Of a stretch of 35,885 nt of DNA, positions 270-34,624 are shown one piece after another. Location: contig JACPLI010000002.1 in NCBI GenBank assembly GCA_016186635.1, forward strand, positions 1 to 35,885, read 5' to 3'. The position numbers and the translations under genes were made by a program. Under the pieces are notes generated by a model. It ran no database searches, was not told where the DNA came from, and was given only the letters and a program-made list of their open reading frames with translations. Origin of the DNA: Candidatus Liptonbacteria bacterium. GTDB taxonomy: Bacteria; Patescibacteriota; Minisyncoccia; UBA6257; 2-01-FULL-56-20. Numbering within the stretch: position 1 is the stretch's first letter; every line of letters begins with the position of its first letter.

Positions 270-845
270 GTGGATGTGCGGGCTCGACTAAAGAAAAACA
301 ATAGGTTGGGTGTGATCCAGCGGAAGGTGCTTCTGCTCTTACTCGCGGGCATTTCGCTCGGGCTTGCGGGTTCTCCTCATGCGCAATGGAAAGTGCTCAA
401 GGAGCTGCATCAAGAGTGGGAGAAAATAAATCGGCAAAGTTTGGAGCGCGCAATTCGGTCGCTCTATGAATCGAAGCTCGTTACTCGCCGGCGCAACAAA
501 GACGGGACTCTCACTATGGAGTTGAGCGATGCAGGGAAAAGGCGGGCGCTCACGTTCAATCTGGCGACAATGAAAATCGCGCGCCCACCGAAGTGGGATG
601 GTCAGTGGCGTATTGTATTATTCGATGTGCCAGAGGAGGGGAAGTCCATTCGCGACGCGTTTCGCGCCCATCTCAAAAGGTTGGGATTCTATGAGTTGCA
701 AAAGTCGGTGTTTGTGCATCCGTTTGAGTGCCGCGACGAGATTGATTTTATCATTGAGCTTCACGACTTGCGTCCGCACGTGCGGTTTATTGTCGCCCAC
801 TCGATTGATAATGCCATGCATTTGAAGAATATATTTAACTTGTAA
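270..845 (+). CDS. PaaX-family regulator with Cas2-like domain (copy 1)
   Basis: This is a 191-aa protein with the PaaX layout. An N-terminal winged-helix region (about 15-95) holds a hydrophobic LLLLLAGISLGL segment and the stretch LERAIRSLYESKLV. A Cas2-like ferredoxin fold (about 110-190) has Asp119 in VLFDVPE, matching the Cas2 active-site Asp, and LQKSVF at 143-148, matching the Cas2 Q-K-S-V-F motif. The start is GTG 270, or GTG 276 if the transcript is leaderless; ATG 268 is out of frame. It is clearly paralogous to the protein at 17171-17764. Known PaaX proteins are DNA-binding repressors; nuclease activity of the Cas2-like domain is not established. No cas genes are nearby, so CRISPR adaptation is unlikely. 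A palindrome lies on each side. Confidence 0.8.
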   Translation: MDVRARLKKNNRLGVIQRKVLLLLLAGISLGLAGSPHAQWKVLKELHQEWEKINRQSLERAIRSLYESKLVTRRRNKDGTLTMELSDAGKRRALTFNLATMKIARPPKWDGQWRIVLFDVPEEGKSIRDAFRAHLKRLGFYELQKSVFVHPFECRDEIDFIIELHDLRPHVRFIVAHSIDNAMHLKNIFNL

Positions 846-1622: not shown

Positions 1623-2429
1623 ATGAAAGAAATCCTACTTATCGACAAACCCGCGGGCATCACGTCGTTTGATGTGATACGCATCTTGCGGCGCAAGCTC
1701 AAGGATGAAAACCCTTCGACTTCGCTCAGGGTCAAGATCGGCCACGCGGGGACCCTCGACCCGATGGCGACTGGGCTTATGATTGTGGGCGTGGGCGAGG
1801 GAACGAAGAAACTCAAGGAGTACTTGAAACTGCCGAAGGTGTACGAGGCGGAGGTGATGCTTGGCCTTCGCACCGATACTGGAGATCGCGAAGGCAAGAT
1901 TCTTGAGCAAGCGAAATTAGGCAATTTGGAAGTTGAGAAATTAGAGAAGGTCCTTGTAGGGATGGTTGGAAAGGTTGTATTGCCGGTGCCGATGTACTCG
2001 GCGGTGAAAATAAAAGGGAAGCCATTATATAAATATGCTCGTGCACTTGCCCGCCGAAGCAGTAGCGAAGGTGGTGAGCTTGTCGAACCACCGAAGAAGG
2101 AGATGGAGGTGACAAATTGCGAGTTGCTCGCAATTTGTCATTCCCGCCCCGTACTGGATTCCCGCGTCCGCGGGAATGACAGATGCGGGGCGGGAATCCA
2201 GTACGGGGTAAACTCCAGCGGGAATCCAGAAACAAAAACACTGGATTCCCATTGTCATGGGAATGACAAACTGATAGTCAAAGTTCGCTTCGAGGTCACA
2301 AGTGGCACCTACATCCGCTCGCTCGCGGAAGAAATCGGGCGGCGGCTCGGCGTGCCCGCGACGCTGTGGAATTTGCGGCGCACGCGGATTGGGGATTTTA
2401 GAATAGAGAGTGCAGAAAAATTAGATTGA
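1623..2429 (+). CDS. truB: tRNA pseudouridine(55) synthase TruB with in-frame repeat insertions
   Basis: TruB makes pseudouridine 55 in the T-loop of tRNAs. The catalytic motif GHAGTLDPMATG is present with Asp46. The C-terminal half has the conserved SGTYIRSLAEEIGRRLG and LRRTRIGDF segments. The start is taken as ATG 1623; a TTG at 1617 is in frame. The 268-aa length is inflated by three in-frame repeat-derived insertions: residues about 30-36 (DNA 1711-1732), about 145-158 (DNA 2055-2092) and about 163-219 (DNA 2111-2278, translating a nested palindrome cluster). All three lie in loops between conserved blocks, so the enzyme is probably functional. It is the first gene after a hairpin at 1572-1599. 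Confidence 0.9.
   Translation: MKEILLIDKPAGITSFDVIRILRRKLKDENPSTSLRVKIGHAGTLDPMATGLMIVGVGEGTKKLKEYLKLPKVYEAEVMLGLRTDTGDREGKILEQAKLGNLEVEKLEKVLVGMVGKVVLPVPMYSAVKIKGKPLYKYARALARRSSSEGGELVEPPKKEMEVTNCELLAICHSRPVLDSRVRGNDRCGAGIQYGVNSSGNPETKTLDSHCHGNDKLIVKVRFEVTSGTYIRSLAEEIGRRLGVPATLWNLRRTRIGDFRIESAEKLD
1711..1732. repeat. Short inverted repeat inserted in truB
   Basis: ACCCT and AGGGT arms flank TCGACTTCGCTC. It translates in frame as Asn-Pro-Ser-Thr-Ser-Leu-Arg-Val just before the catalytic block of TruB. Confidence 0.55.
2070..2092. repeat. Short inverted repeat inserted in truB (GGTGGT ... ACCACC)
   Basis: GGTGGT and ACCACC arms flank GAGCTTGTCGA. It lies in an in-frame run coding for Ser-Ser-Glu-Gly-Gly-Glu-Leu-Val-Glu-Pro-Pro, where TruB proteins have a short loop. 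Confidence 0.5.
2111..2278. repeat. Cluster of nested palindromes inside truB
   Basis: Several palindromes lie in line. 2111-2139 has perfect 13-bp arms (GACAAATTGCGAG). A CCCCGTACTGGATTCCCGC arm and its complement (about 2147-2209) enclose an inner ATTCCCGCG / CGCGGGAAT-type hairpin. A third uses ATTCCCAT / ATGGGAAT. The ATTCCCGC family also occurs between genes at 8476-8537. The whole cluster stays open in the truB frame. Confidence 0.75.
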
Positions 2430-3101: not shown

Positions 3102-3377
3102 AAGCTCTTAACTCAATGTTGTTACGGGATCACTTCTATTCTTGGCAGAAGCACTTCCCTGGTTAGGTCAAATTAACTGCGCACAGTAGAACACAGACAA
3201 GCTATGCTTGTCAAATTAACCTAATTTCTCCGCCCGAGGCGGATCCGCCTCTGGAGGATAATTACCCTAATTAACCTAAATAAATCCCAATCCTCAATGC
3301 CCAAGTGCTTGGACATTGTAACGTTGGTTATTCGTTAGGAATTAGGTCAATTAGAGCAATGAGAATAATTAGCAAAT
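3102..3377. other. Repeat-rich intergenic region
   Basis: No gene is visible. The stretch holds several copies of an AT-rich motif of the TTAGGTCAAATTAAC / AATTAACCTAATT type in both orientations (about 3160-3360). It also holds a GACAAGC-TAT-GCTTGTC hairpin (3196-3212) and a 30-bp TCCGCC-type palindrome (3229-3258). Any promoter of the minus-strand receiver gene would lie at its left edge, but none is convincing. Confidence 0.5.
3229..3258. repeat. TCCGCC-family 30-bp palindrome, copy 1
   Basis: The core GAGGCGGATCCGCCTC is a perfect 16-bp palindrome with TCCGCC and GGAGGA ends. Related 30-bp copies lie at 10235-10267, 10806-10835 and 34556-34585. Confidence 0.65.
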
Positions 3378-8415: not shown

Positions 8416-8611
8416 TCAAGAACACGACAAATAATAAGTTGTCCACAAATATCCCCTGACTCCATACGCACCAGTTGTCATTCCCGCGGAAGCGGGAATC
8501 CAGGACCTATATCCCCGCATGCGCGGGGATGACATGGGTGTTATGTCGCGAAGGGAGAGGCGTGAAGTTGTCCACAGTTCTCCTTACATACGGTTTGCTA
8601 CACTAAAATTA
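8416..8611. other. Intergenic region with ATTCCCGC repeat
   Basis: No gene is visible. It holds the palindrome pair at 8476-8537. A possible extended -10 for the next gene (TGCTACACT, about 8596-8604) has no good -35. Confidence 0.4.
8476..8537. repeat. ATTCCCGC-family palindrome pair
   Basis: Two hairpins in line: ATTCCCGC-GGAA-GCGGGAAT (8480-8499) and ATCCCCGC-ATGC-GCGGGGAT (8511-8530), bordered by TTGTC and GACA. The same family is inserted inside truB at 2140-2278. Confidence 0.75.
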
Positions 8612-8930: not shown

Positions 8931-11900
8931 ATGATGAAGAGTTCCTTTGAAGTGAAGCAATTTGTGGCGGGAGTGGCGGTTGCGTGCGCTCTCGTTTTTG
9001 CTGGCGTATCTGCGGCGCAGGCGCAGGAGAGCAACATTCCGCAGGCGCCGAGCGACGCGCAAATTCAAGCGAGCGGGATTACGTTCCCCGTGCCGGAGCT
9101 GGGAAATTGCGGAAGCAAGAACGAATGTAAGGCGTATTGTGAGAGCCCTGCGAATGCGGAGGCGTGCGTCGCATTTGCCGAGAAGCATGGGCTTATGAAT
9201 AAGGAGGAAGCGGCGCAGGCGAAGAAGTTTACGAAGGCGCTCGCGGCGGGCGGCCCCGGCGGGTGCAAGACGCCGCAGGAGTGCGAATCGTTTTGCAGCA
9301 ACATTGCGAATCTTGAGGCGTGCATGAGTTTTGCAAAGAAGCAGGGCATCAAGAACGCTCAAGTGAGCCAAGGGGAAAAACTTTTGGCGCACATGAAAGC
9401 AGGGGGAAAGACGCCCGGCGGGTGCACATCGGAAGCGGATTGCAAGAACTATTGCAGCGACTTCAGCCACGCGGAGGAGTGTTATGAGTTTGCGAAGAAA
9501 GCGGGGATTGTGCAGACGAAGGGTCAAGCGCGTCAAGGCGGCCCGCGGGGTCCCGGCGGCCCGGGAGGCGGCGAAGACCTTTCTCCGGAGCAATTCGAGA
9601 AGGTGATGGAGCTTGCGAAGAGCGGGCAGACCCCCGGCGGATGCAAATCGAAAGATGCGTGCGAGGCGTATTGTGGAGCGCCGGGGCATACTGAAGAATG
9701 CGTGACCTTTGCCGAGAAAGCAGGATTCATGTCCAGAGAAGAGGCGGCCATGGTTCGGAAAACGGGAGGGAAGGGGCCCGGCGGGTGCAGTTCGCCGCAG
9801 GCGTGCGAGCAGTATTGCAATGAGCCGGCGAACCGCGAGACATGTTTTAAGTTTGCCGAGGAGAATGGATTTATCAGTAAGGAAGAGGTTCAGCGGGCGA
9901 AGGAGGGGCTTGTACAGCTCCGCGCGGGGATAGAGCACGCGCCGCCCGAGGTTGCCGCGTGTTTGAAGTCGACGCTTGGACCCAATGTATTGGATGATAT
10001 TCAGGCGGGAAAGCTTACTCCGGGCCCCGAGATTGGCGACCGCATGCGCGGCTGTTTTGAAAAGTTCGGCTCGCGCGGCGGTCCGCAGGACATGTTTAAG
10101 AATGCGCCGCCGGAAGTTGCCGCATGCATCAAGGAAAAAATCGGCGGCACGTTCGAGGCGATTAAGAGCGGCAAGGAGGCGCCGACGCCGGAGATGGCGG
10201 ACACGCTCCGGGTGTGCTTCCAGAGCGTGCAGTTCTCCGCCGAAGGCGGACCCGCCTTTGGCGGGGAGCAGGGGGAAGGTGGTCCTCGCGGACCAGGAGT
10301 TATGAGGCAAGGACCTCCCGCGCAGGCGCTCCAGCAATTTCTCCGTACGGCTCCGCCGCAAGTGCAGGAGTGTTTGAAGCAGAAGCTTGGCGACAACTTT
10401 GCGAAACTCCAATCGAACGAGCCGGTGGAGGGGTTCGACCCTTCGCTCATACGGAATTGCTTCGAATCGTTCCGGCCCCAAGAACACTTTGGGCCGCCCG
10501 GGGGCGAGGGTGGATTTCCTGGCGGGCCAGGGGGCCCCGGTGAGCAAGGCGGGTTCCGTGGTATTCCTGAAGACGTACTCGCCTGCGTGAAGGAAAAATC
10601 CGGCGGAGCAGTGGATATAGAAAAACTGCGCCGCGGTGAGCGGCCAACTCCGGAGGTGGAAAAGGTGATGGGAGAGTGTTTTGGGAAAATGGGTTCCCAA
10701 GGAGGGCAAGGGGGATTCCCCGGGGGTCCAGGCTTCGGCGGGCCTGGCGAGCAGGGAAGCAAAGGTGGTCCCTTCCCGCAGGGAGGTCCGCAGGGTCAGG
10801 CATTTTCCGCCGGAGGCGGATCCGCCTTTGGCGGAGGGCAGGGCGGCATTCCTCGTGAAATCCTTTCCTGCGTGAAAGAGAAAGTAGGACAGGATGTAAC
10901 TGAAGAAAAATTGCGCGCGTCAACCGGTGACCAAGGGAACCTCGGGCAGGCAATCCGTGAGTGTTTCGGGAAAATGCAGCCCCCGGGGCAAGGGGGGTTC
11001 CCGCAAGGGCGTCCTGAAGGTGGATTTTCCCAGGGCCAGAACTCGCGTTCCGGTCCAGGAGGCGGGCAAGGCGGACTTCCAGAGTCGGTGCTCTCATGCG
11101 TGAAGGAAAAGGCGGGCGATACCGTAGATGTTGAGAAGCTCCGCCGCGGTGCTCAACCAACTCCAGACGTGGAGAAAGTGATAGGAGAGTGTTTTGGGAA
11201 AATGAACGAGAAGGGTGGACAGTTCCCGCAAGGAGGTGAGAGGGGAGGTTTTCCCGGAGGACAGAGCGGTTTTGCGAGCGGGACGCCGGGCCGCTTCGAT
11301 GGACAGCAGCAATTTCAGGAACAATACAAACAGCAGTTTGATGAACAGTTCAAACAGCAATATAACCAGCAGTACAACGCGGAGTTTCAGAAGCAGTATG
11401 GGGAGAAACTCCAAAGCGAGGTGAATCGCCAAACACAAGGATTCCAGGACCAGGCGGGGAAACCGGGTTATGTGAACCCGTTTTCGAGCGGTCCTTCCGG
11501 TCAGGGTGGATTTGGCGGTCAGCCAAACCAGCAGTTCGGACCATCTTCAGGCGGCGCAGGCGGAGGCGGGCAGTTCGGTCCGCCGCCGGGTCCCCAAGGA
11601 GGCGGGTTCCCGGGCGGAGGCGGCTTTGGCCCGGGACCGAGTCAATCATTCCAACCGCAGGAGGGTCGTGCAGAACAGTTGCAACCCAATCAACCCCTGC
11701 AACCGTTTGCACCGCAATTACAAGGACCCCAGGGAGTTCCTCTTTCGCCGACGGGTGGAGGCGCAGGAGGAACCATGCCGCCCCCGCCGGGCGATGCAGG
11801 CGGCGGCGCGCCGCCTCCCTCGGGCGGACAGCAATCTCCTCCGCCTCCGAGCGGCTCGGGTGGCGGAACCCCGCCCCCACCGCCTTCCTCGGCGGCGCCC

Positions 11901-11963
11901 CGGCAGTCGCTCCTCGGAACCATCCTCTCGCCGTTCATAGAACTTTTGGGGATCGGAAGGTAA
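8931..11963 (+). CDS. Large secreted protein with two families of Cys repeats
   Basis: A 1010-aa protein. A signal peptide (1-31, ending AQA) directs export. Five modules (about 60-335) share the spacing C-x5-C-x3-C-x8-C followed by a helix of the FAEKxGL-xxxEEA type. Six modules (about 336-760) of the form PPEVxxCxKEKxG ... xCFxKM have two Cys about 30 residues apart, joined by Gly/Gln/Pro linkers. A Gln/Phe/Tyr-rich stretch (about 788-836, repeated QQ-F-QQY units) and a long Gly/Pro-rich tail end in a hydrophobic segment (LLGTILSPFIELLGIG). All Cys counts are even per module, which fits disulfides outside the cell. The function is unknown; adhesion, a surface layer or a scaffold are options. 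Two TCCGCC palindromes are inserted in frame. A strong terminator follows. Confidence 0.85.
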   Translation: MMKSSFEVKQFVAGVAVACALVFAGVSAAQAQESNIPQAPSDAQIQASGITFPVPELGNCGSKNECKAYCESPANAEACVAFAEKHGLMNKEEAAQAKKFTKALAAGGPGGCKTPQECESFCSNIANLEACMSFAKKQGIKNAQVSQGEKLLAHMKAGGKTPGGCTSEADCKNYCSDFSHAEECYEFAKKAGIVQTKGQARQGGPRGPGGPGGGEDLSPEQFEKVMELAKSGQTPGGCKSKDACEAYCGAPGHTEECVTFAEKAGFMSREEAAMVRKTGGKGPGGCSSPQACEQYCNEPANRETCFKFAEENGFISKEEVQRAKEGLVQLRAGIEHAPPEVAACLKSTLGPNVLDDIQAGKLTPGPEIGDRMRGCFEKFGSRGGPQDMFKNAPPEVAACIKEKIGGTFEAIKSGKEAPTPEMADTLRVCFQSVQFSAEGGPAFGGEQGEGGPRGPGVMRQGPPAQALQQFLRTAPPQVQECLKQKLGDNFAKLQSNEPVEGFDPSLIRNCFESFRPQEHFGPPGGEGGFPGGPGGPGEQGGFRGIPEDVLACVKEKSGGAVDIEKLRRGERPTPEVEKVMGECFGKMGSQGGQGGFPGGPGFGGPGEQGSKGGPFPQGGPQGQAFSAGGGSAFGGGQGGIPREILSCVKEKVGQDVTEEKLRASTGDQGNLGQAIRECFGKMQPPGQGGFPQGRPEGGFSQGQNSRSGPGGGQGGLPESVLSCVKEKAGDTVDVEKLRRGAQPTPDVEKVIGECFGKMNEKGGQFPQGGERGGFPGGQSGFASGTPGRFDGQQQFQEQYKQQFDEQFKQQYNQQYNAEFQKQYGEKLQSEVNRQTQGFQDQAGKPGYVNPFSSGPSGQGGFGGQPNQQFGPSSGGAGGGGQFGPPPGPQGGGFPGGGGFGPGPSQSFQPQEGRAEQLQPNQPLQPFAPQLQGPQGVPLSPTGGGAGGTMPPPPGDAGGGAPPPSGGQQSPPPPSGSGGGTPPPPPSSAAPRQSLLGTILSPFIELLGIGR
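10235..10267. repeat. TCCGCC-family palindrome inside the Cys-repeat gene, copy 2
   Basis: Core GCCGAAGGCGGACCCGCC, ending TTTGGCGGGGA. It codes in frame for Phe-Ser-Ala-Glu-Gly-Gly-Pro-Ala-Phe-Gly-Gly-Glu, in a linker between two-Cys modules. Confidence 0.65.
10806..10835. repeat. TCCGCC-family palindrome inside the Cys-repeat gene, copy 3
   Basis: A 30-bp copy around GGCGGATCCGCC. It codes for Ser-Ala-Gly-Gly-Gly-Ser-Ala-Phe-Gly-Gly-Gly in a linker and has the same orientation and frame as copy 2. Confidence 0.65.
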
Positions 11964-17110: not shown

Positions 17111-17128
17111 GCGGTGTTTTTGTGATTT

Positions 17129-17158
17129 AGCATTTAGCCACGATCGTGGCTAAATGCT
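17129..17158. promoter_or_regulatory. 30-bp perfect palindrome, distal site of PaaX-like cassette 2
   Basis: 15-bp perfect arms with no spacer (AGCATTTAGCCACGA and its complement), core CGATCG. It lies 12 bp after the stop of the minus-strand PaaX-like gene and 18 bp after the fusA stop. There is no T-run, so it is a poor terminator. The ends AGCATTTA / TAAATGCT match the other three sites. Confidence 0.7.
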
Positions 17159-17170
17159 GGATCGGGCGAG

Positions 17171-17764
17171 CTAGTCGAGATTGAACACGCGTTTCAGGTG
17201 CAGCTCATTATCGATTGAGTCAGCGACGATGAAGCGGACGTGCGGCCGCATTTCGTGGAGTTCGATGAGAAATTCTATCTCGTCGCGGCATTCAAAAGGA
17301 AACACAGAAACCGATTTTTGGAGTTCGTGAAATCCCAAGCGCGTCAAGTGTTCACGGAGGGAGTCGCGGGCGTCCCGCGCAGTCTCTGGTATGTCAAAAA
17401 TTACGATACGCCATTTTTTGTCCCACGAATTCGGGCGCAGGATTTTTATGGTGTGGGCGTGATACGTGAGTGCCCGTTTCCTGCCGCGTTCACTCAAGAC
17501 CATGGTGACTGTTCCATCCTCATGCTCTTTTTTCTCAACCATCTTTGACTCATAGAGAGATGCGATGGCGCGTTCGGCGGTCTGTGTATTAATGTCCTCC
17601 CACTGTTTACGGATTTCCCCGATTATCTTCCATTGCTTTCTTGGAGATTGTGTGAGTCCGAGCGAGAAACCTCCAAGGAGAAGGAGAAGAATTTTTTGCT
17701 GCACTGCGCCGATGCGCCGATATTGCTTGCGAGCCCGCACCGGCAGGATTTTCTGTGTTTTCAT
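17171..17764 (-). CDS. PaaX-family regulator with Cas2-like domain (copy 2)
   Basis: A 197-aa paralogue of the protein at 270-845, colinear over nearly the whole length. Shared stretches include KILLLLLGGFSLGL, ERAIASLYESK, KWRIVIFDIPE and LQKSVSVFPFECRDE. Asp124 in VIFDIPE corresponds to the Cas2 Asp; the QKSVF motif reads QKSVS here. The start is ATG 17764 with a leader of about 15 nt from the extended -10 at 17786-17794. It lies head-in between fusA and a LuxR-type gene. It is likely a DNA-binding regulator. Nuclease activity is possible but not established for this family. Confidence 0.8.
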   Translation of the reverse strand: MKTQKILPVRARKQYRRIGAVQQKILLLLLGGFSLGLTQSPRKQWKIIGEIRKQWEDINTQTAERAIASLYESKMVEKKEHEDGTVTMVLSERGRKRALTYHAHTIKILRPNSWDKKWRIVIFDIPETARDARDSLREHLTRLGFHELQKSVSVFPFECRDEIEFLIELHEMRPHVRFIVADSIDNELHLKRVFNLD

Positions 17765-17785: not shown

Positions 17786-17794
17786 ATTTTAGCA
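17786..17794 (-). promoter_or_regulatory. Extended -10 promoter of PaaX-like gene 2
   Basis: TGCTAAAAT on the minus strand, identical to the nonamer before copy 1. It overlaps the palindrome 17791-17820 in the same way. Confidence 0.45.
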
Positions 17795-17820
17795 TTTAGA
17801 AACGATCGTCTACAAATGCT
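17791..17820. promoter_or_regulatory. 30-bp palindrome, promoter-side site of PaaX-like cassette 2
   Basis: 15-bp arms beginning AGCATTTAGAAACGA with core CGATCG; 12 of 15 positions pair. The symmetry extends outward to TTT...AAA. It overlaps the -10 of the PaaX-like gene. Confidence 0.65.
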
Positions 17821-17898
17821 AAATGGGAGATGTGCACAAATGAACGCTCTGACCAAGGAAGGCCGGAGCGGTTTCGCTTTCATCCGCGCGAGGTTGCG

Positions 17899-18586: not shown

Positions 18587-19786
18587 ATGGCAGAGAAGGA
18601 AAAGTTCAGCCGAACGAAGCCGCACGTGAACGTGGGCACGATTGGGCACGTGGACCACGGGAAGACGACCCTTACGGCCGCCATTACCCATGTCCTCTTT
18701 ATGAAGGGTTGGGCGAAGAAGGAAGAAGGAGTGGACCAGATTGACAACGCGCCGGAAGAGAAAGCGCGCGGCATCACCATTGCCTTGCACCACTCGGAGT
18801 ATGAATCCGAGAAGCGCCACTATGCGCACATTGACGCGCCGGGGCACGCGGACTACATCAAGAACATGATTACGGGAGCCGCCCAGATGGACGGCGCCGT
18901 GCTTGTGGTTTCCGCCGCGGACGGACCCATGCCTCAAACGCGGGAGCACATTCTTCTTGCCCGCCAGGTGGGCGTGCCGGCGATTGTCGTGTTTTTGAAC
19001 AAAGTTGACCAGGTGGACGACCCGGAGCTCATTGACCTCGTCGAGTCCGAGATACGCGAACTCTTGAAGAAATACGAGTTCCCCGGCGATATGACTCCGA
19101 TTATCCGCGGCTCGGCCTTGAAAGCACTTAATGCGAAGTCCGCGGACGAAGCAGATGCGAAGCCAGTGCTCGATTTGATTAAGGCGCTCGACGAATTCGT
19201 GCCGAACCCCGTGAGGGATTTGGATAAGCCGTTCCTCATGCCCATCGAGGACATTTTCTCGATTGAAGGCCGCGGCACGGTGGTCACCGGGCGCGCGGAG
19301 CGCGGCAAGGTGAAAGTGAACGAAGAAGTGGAAGTCATCGGACTTCGGCCCACGCAGAAGACGGTGGTGACGGGCATCGAGATGTTCAACAAGCTTTTGG
19401 ACGAGGCGCTTGCGGGCGACAACGTGGGAGTCCTTCTCCGCGGCTTGAAGAAAGAAGACGTGGAGCGCGGGCAGGTGGTGGCAAAGCCGGGGAGCGTCAC
19501 GCCGCACACGGATTTTGAAGCCGAGGTATATGTGCTCTCCAAGGAGGAAGGCGGGCGGCACTCGCCGTTCTTCGGCGGCTACAAACCGCAGTTCTATATC
19601 CGCACGACGGACGTGACGGGGGAAATCACGCTTCCGCAGGGAATGGAAATGGTGATGCCGGGAGATACGGTGAAAGTCACGGTGAAGCTCATCTCCCCGG
19701 TGGCGCTCGAAGAGAAACAGCGGTTTGCCATCCGCGAAGGAGGAAAGACCGTAGGAGCAGGTGTTGTGACAAAGATTAGCAAGTAA
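18587..19786 (+). CDS. tuf: Elongation factor Tu
   Basis: A 399-aa GTPase of usual length that brings aminoacyl-tRNA to the ribosome. The motifs [10 protein letters not shown] (P-loop), DAPGHADY and NKVD are present, as is the EEKARGITI effector region. It has its own promoter and is followed by rpsJ after a hairpin spacer. Confidence 0.97.
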
Positions 19787-19790
19787 TAAT

Positions 19791-19877
19791 CGCACGAACA
19801 CGCGAATACATCCGAAAATACGAATCGCAGTTGTGAATCCTGTTCGTATGTTCGTAATAATTCGTACTTTCGTGTGG
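19791..19877. repeat. Family-II hairpin spacer tuf-rpsJ
   Basis: The left arm starts CGCACGAACACGCGAATAC and the right arm ends ATTCGTACTTTCGTGTGG. They pair imperfectly over more than 30 bp. The rpsJ start follows after 7 nt. Other members lie before rplX, rplF and rpsE. Confidence 0.75.
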
Positions 19878-19884
19878 TAAGGTT

Positions 19885-20220
19885 ATGGCGAAGAAGCAAC
19901 CAGAAAAAGATTTCCCGCAGAAGCTCCGTTTGCGGATTCGTTCCTATGACCACAAGCTGATAGACACTTCCGCACGGCAGATTATCGATGCGGCGGAGCG
20001 GAATGATGCGAAGGTGGTGGGCCCCATTCCTCTTCCCACGGAGACAAAGAAATATACCGTGAACCGCTCGACTTTTGTCCACAAGGACTCGCGCGAGCAG
20101 TTCGAGTTACGGATGCACAAGCGGCTGGTGGACATTCTGAACCCGAGCCAGAAAATCATAGAATCTCTTGGCAATTTGAACTTGCCTGCAGGAGTAGATA
20201 TTGAGATCAAGATGGTGTGA
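19885..20220 (+). CDS. rpsJ: 30S ribosomal protein S10
   Basis: A 111-aa protein, slightly longer than the usual 102. The [21 protein letters not shown] opening and [18 protein letters not shown] loop are typical. It is a head protein of the small subunit and in other bacteria also the NusE antitermination factor. It follows tuf and is followed by a hairpin and a new promoter, so it may be separately controlled from rplC onward. Confidence 0.95.
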
Positions 20221-22856: not shown

Positions 22857-23189
22857 ATGTCGAGAAGTTCCAAAAAAGGACCCTACGTAGACCCGCGCCT
22901 TCTCAAAAAGATAGCAGGGTTGAAGGCGGAGCATGCGCCTTCCATCAAGACGTGGTCGCGCGCGTCCGAGATTGCGCCCGAGATGGTGGGGTTTCTGTTC
23001 GCCGTCCACAATGGGAAAGATTTCATCGAAGTGCGGGTGAGCGAAGAAATGGTGGGCCACCGGTTGGGGGAATTTGCGCAGACGCGCCGTTTCACGAAAC
23101 ACGGCGGAAAGATGCAGCGCGAACTTGAACAAAAGGCGGAAGGAGCGGCGCCGGGAGTAATCGCTCATAATGCGAATAAAGGCAAATAA
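22857..23189 (+). CDS. rpsS: 30S ribosomal protein S19 with repeat-encoded tail
   Basis: A 110-aa protein; usual S19 is about 92. The core [19 protein letters not shown] ... [12 protein letters not shown] is typical. The last 11 residues, [11 protein letters not shown], are encoded by the first part of the intergenic family-I repeat, which also supplies the TAA stop. S17 and L15 end in nearly the same residues. It works in the head of the small subunit with S13. Confidence 0.95.
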
Positions 23190-23292
23190 CGCAAATGAAA
23201 GGAGTAATCGCTAATATCGCGAATATGAAGGCAAATAATGCGAATGGATTCGCGTTATTGAATGCAGATTAGCATTATTCGCGAATACTCTC
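23154..23292. repeat. Family-I hairpin spacer rpsS-rplV (double left arm)
   Basis: Two tandem left halves (GGAGTAATCGCTCATAATGC and GGAGTAATCGCTAATATCGC) are followed by one right arm ending GCATTATTCGCGAATACTC. It overlaps the rpsS C-terminus and ends at the rplV ATG. Confidence 0.75.
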
Positions 23293-23802
23293 ATGGCACG
23301 CATATCCGCACAGTTGAATCACTTGCATATGACCCCGCGCAAAGTACGGGCGGTTGCGGATTTGCTCCGCGGCAGGACGGTGAATGAAGCGGAAGCGGAG
23401 TTGCTTCTCCACCGGCGGCGGGCGGCGAAACCGCTCCTAAAACTGCTCCGGTCCGCGGTTGCAAATGCGCGGCAGCAGAAACTGGAGAGCGGAAATCTCG
23501 TGGTCTCCGAAATTCGCGTTGACCAGGGCACGATGCTCAAGCGCTTTCTCCCTCGTGCCCGAGGCATGGCAACGCCTATTCAGAAAAAGATGTGCCATGT
23601 GATTGTCGTGCTTCAGGAGGGGGCGGTGAAAACGCCGCGATTCTCGATTGTGGTGGAGCGGAAAACGAAGGCGCCCCCGCATTCTCACCGGCCGAAGAAG
23701 GAGAAAGGCGGAGGTGCGCCGCAAAGCGGCGATGCCGCCCCGAAGGCGCCGGCGAAGCAACAGGGATTCTGGAAGAGGATGTTTAGGAGAAAGTCAGTAT
23801 AA
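23293..23802 (+). CDS. rplV: 50S ribosomal protein L22 with long C-terminal extension
   Basis: A 169-aa protein; usual L22 is about 110. The core (1-118) has the MTPRKVRAVADLLRGRTVNEAEAEL start and the tunnel beta-hairpin around RFLPRARGMATPIQKKMCHV. About 50 extra residues follow: a Lys/Pro/Ala-rich linker and a basic amphipathic end (GFWKRMFRRKSV). The role of the extension is unknown; membrane or RNA contact is a guess. Confidence 0.94.
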   Translation: MARISAQLNHLHMTPRKVRAVADLLRGRTVNEAEAELLLHRRRAAKPLLKLLRSAVANARQQKLESGNLVVSEIRVDQGTMLKRFLPRARGMATPIQKKMCHVIVVLQEGAVKTPRFSIVVERKTKAPPHSHRPKKEKGGGAPQSGDAAPKAPAKQQGFWKRMFRRKSV

Positions 23803-25339: not shown

Positions 25340-25608
25340 TGCAACAGACAACAAAGAAGAGAACCCGGGAGGGAATAGTGGTGTCAGACCGCATGCAAAA
25401 GACGCGCGTGGTTGCTATTTCGCGTGAGAAGAAGCATGCGAAATACCTCAAGTACCACACCGTTACGACGCGCGTGAAGGCGCACGATGAACAGAACGAG
25501 TACAAGACAGGAGACAGGGTGCGTATCGAGGAGACCCGCCCGCTGTCGAAGGACAAGCGGTGGCGCATTATAGGAGTAATCGCGAATAATGCGAATAAAG
25601 GCAAATAA
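25336..25608 (+). CDS. rpsQ: 30S ribosomal protein S17 with repeat-encoded tail
   Basis: A 90-aa protein. The OB-fold core has GIVVSDRMQKTRVVAI, KYHTVTTRVKAHDEQNEY and GDRVRIEETRPLSKDKRW. The last residues, [11 protein letters not shown], and the TAA stop are provided by the family-I repeat, as in S19 and L15. It starts inside the end of rpmC and binds 16S rRNA early in assembly. Confidence 0.95.
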   Translation: MMQQTTKKRTREGIVVSDRMQKTRVVAISREKKHAKYLKYHTVTTRVKAHDEQNEYKTGDRVRIEETRPLSKDKRWRIIGVIANNANKGK

Positions 25609-25662
25609 CGCAAATAGATTCGCATTATTCGAAACCTATTCGCGTTATTAGCGAACACTCTT
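25573..25662. repeat. Family-I hairpin spacer rpsQ-rplN
   Basis: The left arm GGAGTAATCGCGAATAATGC pairs with the right arm CGCGTTATTAGCGAACACTC at about 16 of 20 positions. It overlaps the rpsQ C-terminus and ends at the rplN start. Confidence 0.75.
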
Positions 25663-26031
25663 ATGATTCAAGAACGCTCCATACTCAAAGTTGCCGACAA
25701 CTCCGGCGCAAAAATCGTTCGGTGTTTCCGCGTACTCGGCGGTACGCGCCGCCACTACGCAAGGGTAGGCGATATTATTGTGGCTTCAGTGCAGGTGGCG
25801 GAACCGAGGAAAGCCGTTAAGAAGAAAGACGTGGTGAAAGCGCTTGTGGTGCGCTCGCGCGCGGCGGTTCGCCGCATCGACGGTTCGTACGTGCGTTTTG
25901 ATGAAAACGCGGTGGTGCTTATTGACGCAAAGAAGGAGCCGGTGGCAACGCGGGTGTTCGGACCCATGCCGCGCGAGCTTAAGGATAAAGGATTCGAGAA
26001 ACTTATGACGATGGCGGAAGAAATCGTATGA
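25663..26031 (+). CDS. rplN: 50S ribosomal protein L14
   Basis: A 122-aa protein at the exact family length. It starts MIQERSILKVADNSGAK and contains GDIIVASVQVAEP and VFGPMPRELKDKGFEK. It forms an intersubunit bridge and is the docking site of the silencing factor RsfS in other bacteria. Confidence 0.96.
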   Translation: MIQERSILKVADNSGAKIVRCFRVLGGTRRHYARVGDIIVASVQVAEPRKAVKKKDVVKALVVRSRAAVRRIDGSYVRFDENAVVLIDAKKEPVATRVFGPMPRELKDKGFEKLMTMAEEIV

Positions 26032-26036
26032 AGACT

Positions 26037-26115
26037 TATCGCACGAATGTACGAATGAATGCCGAATATACGGATTCGTATGTTCGTAACAATTCGTAAA
26101 TTAGTGCGATACTTA
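26037..26115. repeat. Family-II hairpin spacer rplN-rplX
   Basis: The left arm ATCGCACGAATGTACGAATG pairs with the right arm ATTCGTAAATTAGTGCGAT. It ends just before the candidate starts of rplX at 26116 and 26122. Confidence 0.75.
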
Positions 26116-26121
26116 ATGATA

Positions 26122-27025: not shown

Positions 27026-27211
27026 ATGCCTAAGACATCCGTCGTCGCACGAAGCCGCAAGGCTCCAAAGTATACAACCCGCATAGTGTTGCGCTGTTTC
27101 CGTTGCGGAAGGAAACGCGGCTATATGCGGGATTTCGAGCTCTGCCGCATTTGTTTCCGCGAGATGGCGACCCGCGGGGAGATACCGGGAGTGAGGAAAG
27201 CGTCATGGTAG
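27026..27211 (+). CDS. rpsN: 30S ribosomal protein S14, zinc-binding type
   Basis: A 61-aa protein of the short (type Z) form. It has C-F-R-C (in [16 protein letters not shown]) and C-R-I-C (in [11 protein letters not shown]), which bind zinc. It ends KASW, and its TAG stop is the first three bases of the next family-I repeat. It sits in the head of the small subunit. Confidence 0.95.
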
Positions 27212-27300
27212 GAGTAATCGCGAATAACGCAAATTAAAGCAAATAACGCAAGTAGATTCGCACTATTAAATCCAGATTCGCATTATTCGCGAATACTTCT
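27209..27300. repeat. Family-I hairpin spacer rpsN-rpsH
   Basis: Starts TAGGAGTAATCGCG, where TAG is the rpsN stop, and ends GCATTATTCGCGAATACTTC directly before the rpsH ATG. Here the repeat is entered in a different frame than in rpsS, rpsQ and rplO. Confidence 0.75.
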
Positions 27301-27681
27301 ATGTATTACGACACCATTATAAAAGTGAAAAATGCCCAAATGGCGCGAAAGGAATCGCTCACGGTGCCGTACTCCCGCATGGACCACGCTGTGCTCCGGG
27401 CGCTTGCCGAGAAGCGTTTTGTGAAAGAGGTGCAGCGGAAAACGGTGGGGAGGCGGAGTGTGCTTGAAGTGAAGCTGAGCTATGAAGGAGGAAAACCCCG
27501 CATCGAAGGAGTGAAAATTGTGAGCAAGCCAAGCCGGCGTATGTACCGCCCCTCTGCGGAACTGAAGCCGGTGCGGCAGGGTTTTGGTATCGCCATTCTT
27601 TCGACATCGAAAGGAGTGATGTCAAACAGCGAAGCGCGCAAACAGAAAGTCGGCGGGGAGTACTTGTTTGAAATATGGTAA
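27301..27681 (+). CDS. rpsH: 30S ribosomal protein S8
   Basis: A 126-aa protein. It has IIKVKNAQMARKESLTVPYSRM at the start and the C-terminal GIAILSTSKGVMSNSEARKQKVGGEYLFEIW, both typical. In E. coli S8 is the repressor of the spc operon. It lies between family-I and family-II hairpins. Confidence 0.95.
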   Translation: MYYDTIIKVKNAQMARKESLTVPYSRMDHAVLRALAEKRFVKEVQRKTVGRRSVLEVKLSYEGGKPRIEGVKIVSKPSRRMYRPSAELKPVRQGFGIAILSTSKGVMSNSEARKQKVGGEYLFEIW

Positions 27682-27683
27682 TA

Positions 27684-27760
27684 CCGCACGAACACGCGAA
27701 TCAGTACGAACATCCGAACGGATTCGTATATTCGTACATAGTTCGTAGATTCGTGCGATA
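27684..27760. repeat. Family-II hairpin spacer rpsH-rplF
   Basis: The left arm CGCACGAACACGCGAATCAG pairs with a right arm ending AGTTCGTAGATTCGTGCG. rplF starts 5 nt later. Confidence 0.75.
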
Positions 27761-27765
27761 ATTCA

Positions 27766-28698: not shown

Positions 28699-28792
28699 TA
28701 TCGCACGAACATACGAATGAGTACGAAAATACGAATTGCACGCCGTGAGTCCGTTCGTATGTTCGTAACAATTCGTAAATTCGTGCGATACT
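28699..28792. repeat. Family-II hairpin spacer rplR-rpsE (best stem)
   Basis: The left arm TATCGCACGAACATACGAAT and its continuation pair with the right arm ending ACAATTCGTAAATTCGTGCG. By eye about 32 of 38 positions match. rpsE follows after about 9 nt. No ribosome-binding site is seen between. Confidence 0.8.
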
Positions 28793-28799
28793 TAATGCA

Positions 28800-29408: not shown

Positions 29409-29876
29409 ATGCAACTGCATCAATTACAGCGTGATCCTTCGCGGAAGCAAAGCCAGCGCATCGGGCGCGGCGGCAAACGGGGAAGCTATTCAGGCCGCGG
29501 CGTGAAAGGGCAGAAGTCCCGTGCGGGGCGCCGCCTCCGGCCTGCGGTGCGGGACTTGATTATCCGGCTTCCGAAGCGCCGCGGGTTCCGGAATAAGCCG
29601 AAAAGCGAGCGTGCGGTGCCGTTGAATCTCGATGTTCTCGCGCGCGCCCTGCGGCCCCTTCAGGGGAGCAAGGGAACATTGGTGACGGTTACCCCCGAGG
29701 TGCTTGTGCAAACGGGAATCGTACCGACGGAGTTCCGGGGAGTGGTGAAGATTCTCGGCGGCGGCGAGATTGATATCGCGATTGAAGTGCGCGGCATTCC
29801 GACTTCCGCATCTGCTAAAATGAAGATTGAGAAAGCGGGAGGAGTAATAGCAAATAACGCGAATCAAGGCAAATAA
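29409..29876 (+). CDS. rplO: 50S ribosomal protein L15 with repeat-encoded tail
   Basis: A 155-aa protein. The Gly/Arg-rich start (RIGRGGKRGSYSGRGVKGQKSRAG) is typical and threads through 23S rRNA. The core ends near KIEKAG, and the last residues [11 protein letters not shown] come from the family-I repeat, which also gives the stop. Confidence 0.95.
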   Translation: MQLHQLQRDPSRKQSQRIGRGGKRGSYSGRGVKGQKSRAGRRLRPAVRDLIIRLPKRRGFRNKPKSERAVPLNLDVLARALRPLQGSKGTLVTVTPEVLVQTGIVPTEFRGVVKILGGGEIDIAIEVRGIPTSASAKMKIEKAGGVIANNANQGK

Positions 29877-29921
29877 CATTCGCATTATTGAATCCATATT
29901 CGCATTATTCGCGATTACTCT
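29841..29921. repeat. Family-I hairpin spacer rplO-secY
   Basis: GGAGTAATAGCAAATAACGC on the left pairs with GCATTATTCGCGATTACTC on the right. It covers the rplO C-terminus and ends directly at the secY ATG. Confidence 0.78.
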
Positions 29922-31193
29922 ATGAACCGGTTCCTCCAAATTTTCCGCATTCCCGACATCCGCCGAAAGGTGATAGTGGTGTTGGGGCTCCTCGTCGCCT
30001 ACCGTTTTCTTGCGGCGATTCCTATTCCCGGCGTTGACGCGTTGCGGCTTGAGAACTACTTCAACTCAAACCAGCTTTTGGGATTCTTGAACTTTTTTTC
30101 AGGAGGAGGATTGGAAAATCTCTCCGTCATGATGCTGGGAGTGGGACCGTACATCACTGCGACCATTATCATGCAGCTCTTTACGCTCATTTTTCCGAAG
30201 TTTAAGGAAATGTACTACGAAGACGGCGCGCGCGGACGGGCGAAGTTCAACCAGTACTCGCGGCTCCTGACTGTGCCTCTCGCGGTGTTTCAGGCGTACG
30301 GATTTCTTACACTCTTGGTGTCCCAGGGCGTGATTGACCGACCCGACGCGTGGAGCATGTTCACGAATGTGGCGGCAATCTCGGCGGGGTCTATGATTGC
30401 GTTATGGCTCGGCGAGCTTATTACGGAGCAAAAGATCGGGAACGGCGTTTCGCTCGTCATTCTTGCGGGCATCGTGAGCCGGCTCCCTGCGGACATCCGG
30501 CTTGCACTTCTTCAATACACGCCGGCGAAGCTTCCCACCTACATTGGCTTTGTGGCGGTGCTTCTCATCGTTATTTTCGGGGTGGTGTACCTGAATGAGG
30601 GAGAACGAAAGGTGCCGGTGGCGTACGCGCGCCGCGTGCGCGGTATGAAGATGTACGGCGGCGTTTCGAGCTACCTTCCCCTCAAGGTGAATCAGGCGGG
30701 GATGATTCCGCTGATTTTCGCCATTTCCGTGCTTCTCTTCCCGCAGTTCATCGCCCAAGTGCTCACCGCATTTGCCCCCGCAGCGGGCGCGCAGGTGAAT
30801 GAATTCGTCGTCCGCATACTCAACAATCAGCTGTTCTACGGCATCATTTACTTCTCGCTGGTGTTCGCGTTCACCTATTTTTACACCTCGATTACGTTTA
30901 ACCCTTCGGAGGTTGCGAAAAATCTCCAGCGAGGCGGAGGATTTATCCCCGGCATCCGCCCCGGCGAGATGACGGAGCAGTATTTTGCGAAGACGGTGAA
31001 CCGCGTCACGTTCTTCGGCGCAATTTTCCTCGGTCTCGTGGCAGTGCTTCCCATCATTGTCCAGTCGTTCACCGGCGTGGCGGTCTTGACGGTGAGCGGT
31101 ACGGCGCTCTTGATTGTGGTCGCCGTGGCGCTTGAGACCATGCGGCAGATTGATTCCCAGCTCACCGTGCGGGAGTACGAGGGGATACAATAG
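29922..31193 (+). CDS. secY: Protein translocase subunit SecY
   Basis: A 423-aa membrane protein with about ten hydrophobic helices, the pore of the Sec export channel. The IPIPGVDALRL start region, NQLLGFLNFFSGG, the MLGVGPYITATIIMQL helix, GNGVSLVILAGIVSRLP, and the VAYARRVRGMKMYGG loop, which contacts the ribosome and SecA, are typical. It is needed to export the anchored and secreted proteins in the first third of the window. The TAG stop belongs to the next repeat. Confidence 0.96.
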   Translation: MNRFLQIFRIPDIRRKVIVVLGLLVAYRFLAAIPIPGVDALRLENYFNSNQLLGFLNFFSGGGLENLSVMMLGVGPYITATIIMQLFTLIFPKFKEMYYEDGARGRAKFNQYSRLLTVPLAVFQAYGFLTLLVSQGVIDRPDAWSMFTNVAAISAGSMIALWLGELITEQKIGNGVSLVILAGIVSRLPADIRLALLQYTPAKLPTYIGFVAVLLIVIFGVVYLNEGERKVPVAYARRVRGMKMYGGVSSYLPLKVNQAGMIPLIFAISVLLFPQFIAQVLTAFAPAAGAQVNEFVVRILNNQLFYGIIYFSLVFAFTYFYTSITFNPSEVAKNLQRGGGFIPGIRPGEMTEQYFAKTVNRVTFFGAIFLGLVAVLPIIVQSFTGVAVLTVSGTALLIVVAVALETMRQIDSQLTVREYEGIQ

Positions 31194-31289
31194 GAGTAAT
31201 CGCGAATAATGCGAATGGCGGGCGAATAACGCGAATCCATTCACAATTCGCATTATTTGATTACAATTAGCATTATTCGCGATTACTCC
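31191..31289. repeat. Family-I hairpin spacer secY-adk (near-perfect stem)
   Basis: The left arm GGAGTAATCGCGAATAATGC.. (31193-31216) and the right arm ..GCATTATTCGCGATTACTCC (31266-31289) match at 23 of 24 positions. A second, inner stem (GAATAACGCGAAT with ATTCGCATTATT) lies inside. The ATG of adk follows with no gap. Confidence 0.82.
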
Positions 31290-31862
31290 ATGTACGATGC
31301 AATCTTTGTGCTCGGTCCCCAGGGCTCCGGCAAGGGTACGCAGGCGAAGTTGCTTGCGGACAAACTTAGATTTTTTTTCTGGGACACGGGGGCGGTCTTG
31401 CGCAGGAACGCGAATGTAGCCACCGCAAGCGGGGAACGGGCGGGAGACATCTTGAAAACCGGGCGACTCTTCACGGATGAGGAGCTTTTGAGTGTGGTCC
31501 GGCAGGAGCTCATGCGTCTCCCGCGAGAGCAAGGCGTGGTGTTCGACGGCATTCCGCGACGCGTCGGGCAGGCGGAGTTTCTTCTGGGGCTTCTCCGGGA
31601 GCAGGGAAAAACAAGGTTCGCTACTTTCTTCCTGGACATTCCCGCGGAGGAGTCCCGGAAGCGCCTTCTCCTCCGTGCGGAGAAGGAGGGGAGAAGCGAC
31701 GATACGCGGGGGGCAATCGGGCGGCGCCTTGCCGATTACGAGGCAAACACGGTTCCCATGCTCCCATTCCTTCGGGAGCACACGGAATTTTTTGAGGTGG
31801 ATGGAACGCCTTCTATTCAAGAGGTGGAGGCGCATATTGCACAGGCACTCGGAATTTCCTAA
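31290..31862 (+). CDS. adk: Adenylate kinase
   Basis: A 190-aa protein. The P-loop GPQGSGKGTQ is at 9-18, followed by DTGAVLRRN, the GVVFDGIPRRVGQAE block matching the F-D-G-F-P-R motif, and a short LID region without Cys ligands (RAEKEGRSDD). It interconverts AMP, ADP and ATP. The true start is ATG 31290; an upstream frame reads through the repeat. secY-adk-map is the common gene order. Confidence 0.9.
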   Translation: MYDAIFVLGPQGSGKGTQAKLLADKLRFFFWDTGAVLRRNANVATASGERAGDILKTGRLFTDEELLSVVRQELMRLPREQGVVFDGIPRRVGQAEFLLGLLREQGKTRFATFFLDIPAEESRKRLLLRAEKEGRSDDTRGAIGRRLADYEANTVPMLPFLREHTEFFEVDGTPSIQEVEAHIAQALGIS

Positions 31863-34547: not shown

Positions 34548-34555
34548 ATAGCTTT

Positions 34556-34585
34556 TCCGCCCGAAGCGGATCCGCCTTCGGCGGA
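34556..34585. repeat. TCCGCC-family 30-bp palindrome, copy 4
   Basis: Core GCGGATCCGC with TCCGCC and GGCGGA ends, close to copy 3 inside the Cys-repeat gene. It lies right after greA and could act as its terminator, though no T-run follows. Confidence 0.65.
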
Positions 34586-34624
34586 GAGCGATAAGGTTTA
34601 AGTTGGTCCCGCGTGCGCGGGGCT

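Follow-up and report, generated by a model that had tools for sequence, protein, structure and literature searches.

The truB gene of this Patescibacteria genome is interrupted at three sites by palindromic repeats and remains open in frame throughout, which raises the question of what these segments are, how they arrived and how the enzyme accommodates them. The window, that is the whole stretch of DNA analysed, covers 35,885 nucleotides of contig C31 and is part of a 31-contig, 921,088-base (0.92-Mb) genome that is 97.85% complete. The reading that we favor, with a probability of roughly 0.85, is that small non-autonomous palindromic repeats landed in truB more than once, a cluster of CGTC-1 units at site 3 and a second repeat at sites 1 and 2, and are tolerated as disordered surface loops. 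The gene carries three in-frame insertions from two repeat families, adding 8 codons at site 1, 9 at site 2 and about 40 at site 3, and the features concerned are as follows.

1623 to 2429, forward strand: truB (tRNA pseudouridine-55 synthase), 268 amino acids, Pfam TruB_N match at 1e-35.
1711 to 1736, forward strand: insert 1, TTCGAC-family palindrome ACCC-TTCGAC-TTC-GCTCA-GGGT with CAAG tail.
2051 to 2074, forward strand: insert 2a, palindrome CCGCC-GAAGCAGTAGCGAAG-GTGG, overlapping insert 2b.
2070 to 2092, reverse strand: insert 2b, TTCGAC-family palindrome GGTGG-TTCGAC-AA-GCTCA-CCACC, encoding GGELVEPP in truB.
2111 to 2139, forward strand: perfect 13-bp hairpin GACAAATTGCGAG-TTG-CTCGCAATTTGTC, mostly native codons (VTNCELLAIC).
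2136 to 2201, forward strand: outer CGTC-1 unit of insert 3, TGTC-ATTCCCGCCCCG ... CGGGGCGGGAAT-CCAG, with the unit at 2154 to 2181 interrupting its loop.
2154 to 2181, reverse strand: nested inverted CGTC-1 unit of insert 3, CTGG-ATTCCCGC-GTCC-GCGGGAAT-GACA, encoding LDSRVRGND.
2216 to 2229, forward strand: right half of a CGTC-1 unit of insert 3 (GCGGGAATCCAG).
2241 to 2268, reverse strand: complete inverted CGTC-1 unit of insert 3, CTGG-ATTCCCAT-TGTC-ATGGGAAT-GACA, encoding LDSHCHGND.
8476 to 8534, no strand assigned: intergenic head-to-head CGTC-1 pair, TGTC-ATTCCCGC-GGAA-GCGGGAAT-CCAG / ATCCCCGC-ATGC-GCGGGGAT-GACA.

An earlier note on this DNA had placed in-frame repeats of one family at three positions in truB, with a further copy between genes at 8476-8537. 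The repeats are present at these positions in an uninterrupted frame, and they belong to two families rather than one, TTCGAC-GCTCA at 1711 and 2070 and ATTCCC-N8-GGGAAT at 2136-2268. The first repeat is exactly as described, its palindrome at 1711-1732 being ACCCTTCGACTTCGCTCAGGGT and its CAAG tail occupying 1733-1736; it encodes the ENPSTSLRV region, which separates helix 15-29 from the GHAGTLDP strand. The repeat at 2070-2092 is likewise present, within a larger insert that includes the overlapping palindrome at 2051-2074, and the two together account for the extra codons after helix 135-146. The third had been given as 2111-2278, a start about 25 bases too early, since the codons of the hairpin at 2111-2139 align mostly with native TruB residues (MEV-TNCELLAIC) and its final 4 bases form the TGTC tag of the outer unit. 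The insert proper, at about 2136-2268, is a nested cluster of CGTC-1 units and lies in the turn of a β-hairpin. The intergenic copy is real and is better described as a head-to-head pair of the ATTCCC type ending at 8534.

Comparison with relatives indicates that these segments were added to a normal TruB. Loop lengths at the three sites were measured in 34 other TruB proteins and confirm the insertions: the site 1 loop has 13 residues here and usually 4-7 elsewhere (exceptions 11, 12 and 31), the site 2 loop 20 residues against 11 in 33 of the 34, and the site 3 loop 64 residues against 21-32. Alignments with PDB entries 1sgv and 1r3e show an 8-residue gap at site 1. The closest TruB relatives with names come from two MAGs, one of Liptonbacteria (L016) and one of Patescibacteria (L017), whose TruB matches equal those of the same-genus genomes G002 and G001; neither of these genomes has an insert at sites 2 and 3. 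At site 1, G001 has no insert and G002 has seven extra residues without a recognisable palindrome, so that the segments are not conserved as protein in relatives, the observation that would have spoken for old TruB sequence. Other TruB loops have received repeats of their own: in a genome of another genus (G011, L398) site 1 is 26 residues longer owing to a different palindrome, CCTAAATTTCTTTCAGAAATTTTGG, that recurs elsewhere in the same genome (L396, L397, L399), and in the TruB of G057 a fourth loop holds a TTCGAC element that has diverged slightly. As the nearest genomes found share 66-68% TruB identity, the insertions are undated and their empty-site junctions are not base-exact.

The gene is the sole TruB match in its genome, and its core is intact, with the GHAGTLDP catalytic motif, the GTYIRSLA block and, by alignment columns, every family-invariant residue in place. 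An AlphaFold2 model built from 35 sequences has a mean pLDDT of 86.9, and its top Foldseek match is E. coli TruB (1k8w, E 2e-21). The proposal that all three repeats fall in TruB loops is supported by this confident model, in which they are predicted to sit between secondary-structure elements: insert 1 links helix 15-29 to strand 39-42, insert 2 follows helix 135-146, and insert 3 links strands 158-174 and 216-225 at a pLDDT of about 50 and is predicted to be a disordered loop. Three repeat loci fall within the 0.8 kb of truB where 0.03 would be expected, and with loci treated as independent about 0.007 genes of this size would carry three by chance.

The family at site 3 is dispersed in the genome. 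Its form is TGTC-ATTCCCGC-N4-GCGGGAAT-CCAG, and pattern searches, which miss copies with mutated cores as do all genome-wide counts given here, returned 26 perfect copies of ATTCCC-N8-GGGAAT (an 8-bp stem starting with AT and a 4-nt loop) and none of the reversed control pattern. One end of each perfect unit listed is TGTC or CGTC (GACA when read on the opposite strand), the genome contains TGTCATYCCC 36 times, and most units are followed by an unpaired tail of CCAG, CCA or a CTAG variant. Besides the pair at 8476-8534, units are arranged head-to-head at C3:5020/5074, C11:1963/1995, C16:42063/42107 and C29:7486/7530. Perfect copies are absent from the same-genus genomes G001 and G002, and every control count was likewise zero. 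Across 81 genomes the copy numbers are patchy (30, 26, 21, 18, 17, 15 and mostly 0), as expected for something that spreads in bursts. Few copies lie in genes: in addition to the truB cluster, a head-to-head pair is in frame in uvrA, encoding about 26 residues (VSFPRTRESKVSQGTLDSRFHGNDRK), and one copy is in frame in a P-type ATPase gene. By manual count this makes about 3 intragenic loci in 21, a count that leaves out the ORFs L003, L005, L006, L010, L131 and L134, which cross CGTC-1 units and have no recognised family or have the repeat at one end.

The second family behaves differently in this respect, with 14 of 18 armed copies in frame in long ORFs (Fisher p = 9e-5) and 13 of those 14 in Pfam-recognised genes. 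Its core, TTCGAC-N2/3-GCTCA, is enclosed by complementary arms of 3-12 bp, and CAAG usually comes next. This core has 20 matches in the genome against 1 for the control, 18 of them with arms of at least 3 bp; among 101 core matches from this genome and related loci, 58 have such arms where 1 in 64 is expected. Matches at L111, a native KMSKS motif, and at L127 have no arms and were rejected as chance. The in-frame hosts are genes for a Tyr/Trp-type tRNA synthetase, MiaA, a PG-binding protein, PurD, an AIRS-domain protein, DnaG, TsaD, an ATP synthase alpha/beta-type subunit, SecA, LigA (two copies) and TruB (two copies). Compared with the G001 and G002 orthologues, tsaD and the ATP synthase subunit gene each show a net gain of 21 nt, purD and truB site 1 one of 24 nt, and miaA and ligA, which hold stacked copies, one of 57-60 nt. 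The element in secA and that in the tRNA synthetase gene take up as many codons as the native sequence does. In relatives, in-frame copies also occur in other genes, for example those for MiaA, MnmA and a class I tRNA synthetase; in G001 the copy in the AIRS gene differs in orientation and frame. Two frames dominated the first 13 cases, an apparent bias that was not retained because 35 copies within ORFs use five frames (11, 9, 7, 6 and 2). Of 287 genomes sampled from across the phylum, 72 contain the strict form CCC-TTCGAC-N2/3-GCTCA-GGG, for which the control gave no matches, and at least 120 stretches of a viral-contig collection contain it too; core copies per genome range from 0 to 89.

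Taken together, the repeat nature of the segments, their two families, their absence from relatives (barring the other inserts at site 1), lengths in multiples of three, loop positions and an intact enzyme core all agree with insertion of small non-autonomous repeats, and other core genes of the same genome show the same in-frame behavior. The repeats would spread through the genome, and copies in genes would survive only where they add a whole number of codons and the protein accepts the peptide as a disordered loop. The insert peptides are probably translated and not removed, and the TruB that carries them is presumably still active. A younger unit lies in the loop of an older one in ligA, miaA, L219 and truB, which suggests that new copies sometimes land inside an older copy and that insertion favors the hairpin itself.

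Mobilisation by a RAYT enzyme was rejected as the means of movement, since the genome has no match to PF01797, the Y1 transposase, and across 81 genomes the presence of a Y1 transposase is not associated with copy number for either family (Fisher p = 1.0 and 0.34). The same observations lend weight to a possibility that we consider real and less than even, namely that the repeats spread by replication errors, through template switching or through repair synthesis with short hairpins as primers, with loops overwritten or extended via microhomology. It would account for the nested copies, and the equal codon number in secA and the tRNA synthetase gene is not plain insertion and favors template switching or later trimming in those two genes. 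The units, however, have defined ends, tags and tails, and constant cores in unrelated genes, like transposed elements, and enzymes other than Y1 can mobilise MITE-like elements in trans. This alternative concerns only how the repeats move and leaves their identity as repeats untouched.

It is unlikely that the inserts were selected for a function, whether as mRNA hairpins that slow translation or set mRNA stability or as loops that bind tRNA or partners. The RNA of 2103-2278 is strongly folded (-102.5 kcal/mol, z = -12 against shuffles), site 2 follows helix 135-146, close to a region that contacts RNA in E. coli TruB, and truB is repeatedly a target in unrelated bacteria, all of which could be read in favor of a function. 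Against it stand the absence of the inserts from same-genus relatives, the occurrence of the same repeats in unrelated genes and in several reading frames, and the predicted disorder of insert 3. Less probable again is that the second family is a DNA-uptake-type sequence, comparable to the Neisseria DUS or Haemophilus USS and enriched in core genes by transformation bias. Its constant asymmetric core, its many copies in core and repair genes and its tolerance in flexible loops would fit such a role; uptake sequences, though, usually number hundreds to thousands per genome and arise by point change, whereas this family has at most 89 copies per genome, paired arms and net gains of 21-24 nt. That the segments are old TruB sequence whose repetitiveness is only apparent, or part of a decaying pseudogene, is contradicted by relatives without them, repeats across the genome and a single TruB match with all invariant residues, and nothing beyond the open frame speaks for it.

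The insertion of small non-autonomous palindromic repeats remains the preferred reading, and it connects truB to systems known from distant bacteria. Site 3 has the tag, stem, loop and tail of CGTC-1 REPs (TGTC, 8-bp ATTCCCGC, 4 nt and CCA(G)), together with head-to-head pairs, occasional in-frame intragenic copies and no dedicated or linked transposase. The CGTC-1 superfamily has been equated with Neisseria dRS3 and Rickettsia RPE-6 (Di Nocera 2013, PMC3733652). The likeness to Rickettsia palindromic elements drawn in the earlier note is therefore closer than resemblance at site 3, and the different palindrome at sites 1 and 2 shows the same behavior. Both truB and uvrA are recorded targets: REPs occur in truB of S. 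maltophilia, E. litoralis and S. alaskensis and in uvrA of O. terrae and Thioalkalivibrio, and RPE-1 occurs in R. conorii truB (PMC3733652). The present case differs in that Patescibacteria are not among the five phyla listed there (PMC3733652) and in that the truB copy is nested, with one unit in the loop of another. With RPE-1 to RPE-7 and the Wolbachia palindromic elements the repeats share in-frame insertion in core genes and solvent-exposed or loop positions, the latter as predicted for truB. In-frame insertions that the G001 and G002 orthologues lack were seen in truB, uvrA, miaA, ligA, tsaD, purD and the ATP synthase subunit gene. A further likeness is that orthologous sites receive different repeat groups, as in a study of R. 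japonica, which also found ATGAC common to RPE-4, -6 and -7 (PMC3767692). That motif is shared with elements found here but not with the TTCGAC-GCTCA core, for which these three RPE groups were the ones compared. Rickettsia elements are also longer, at 100-150 bp, against single units of about 22-28 bp and a largest cluster of 133 bp here. GTAG REPs mobilised by RAYT enzymes are similarly short, dispersed and tailed on one side, and differ in their GTAG tag, which is TGTC here, and in the Y1 transposase, which was not detected in this genome. Because truB and uvrA are REP or RPE targets elsewhere, what the finding adds is a new phylum and a second coding family, not a system of a new type.

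The TTCGAC-N2/3-GCTCA palindrome is apparently undescribed; a search of the open literature, with most subscription journals outside its scope, returned no description of the core and is weak evidence of novelty. We propose tentatively, at somewhat less than even odds, that it is an undescribed and widespread coding-sequence element of about 24 bp, with variable complementary arms and a CAAG tail, that has repeatedly added 7-8 codons to essential proteins, inserts into its own older loops and can replace native codons without a change in length.

Other repeats were seen in the same material. Seven PaaX_M/Cas2-like genes in the genome, two of them in the window (270-845 and 17171-17764), are mostly flanked by near-perfect palindromes of 30-46 nt, here at 232-266, 919-958, 17126-17165 and 17788-17827, with copy-specific arms and a center such as ACGATCGT or GCCATGGC. 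In 34 such loci, including L402, L403, L407, L414, L417, L424, L427, L430, L431 and L433, there are 69 hairpins against 6 in shuffles, and 14 loci have a left and right pair sharing 8-mers; gene and palindromes may form a mobile or self-regulating unit, of which no description was found in the literature. Spacers of the ribosomal operon contain related inverted repeats, GGAGTAATCGCGAATAATGCGAAT, at 23154-23295, 25566-25665, 27204-27303, 29841-29927 and 31193-31295, which run into gene ends and give three ribosomal proteins a similar C-terminal tail of 11 protein letters. Another spacer repeat, TTCGTATGTTCGTAACAATTCGTAAATTCGTGCGATA, lies in both orientations at 19784-19886, 26033-26118, 27682-27764 and 28699-28797. 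The palindrome approximating TCCGCC-RRAGGCGGATCCGCCTTY-GGCGGA is found at 3226-3266, 10233-10273, 10803-10843 and 34553-34593, two copies being intergenic and two in frame in a 1010-aa ORF (8931-11963). Two tandem palindromes, RPEPVEGSGNPSTSSGLAVAKY / DPERSEGTGANPSTSSGLAIAKY, occupy the same site of DnaG in two genera (L180 of G015; L119) and reflect either inheritance or a hotspot.

Palindromic repeats that code for protein have hitherto been seen mainly as a trait of Rickettsia and Wolbachia, with sporadic examples from other sources, and the present data indicate that they are not peculiar to these genera. The occurrence of CGTC-1 in truB and uvrA of a Patescibacteria genome suggests that distant bacteria have target genes in common. 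Peptides such as PSTSSG, PELVEG and LDSRxRGND are repeat-derived and should not be annotated as conserved domains. The second repeat, which one genome carries in frame within about ten of its core genes and which is present in many genomes of the phylum, offers a large natural experiment on the sites at which proteins tolerate insertion, and if the proposal made for it is true, the TTCGAC palindrome would be one of the chief sources of short in-frame insertions in the proteins of Patescibacteria.
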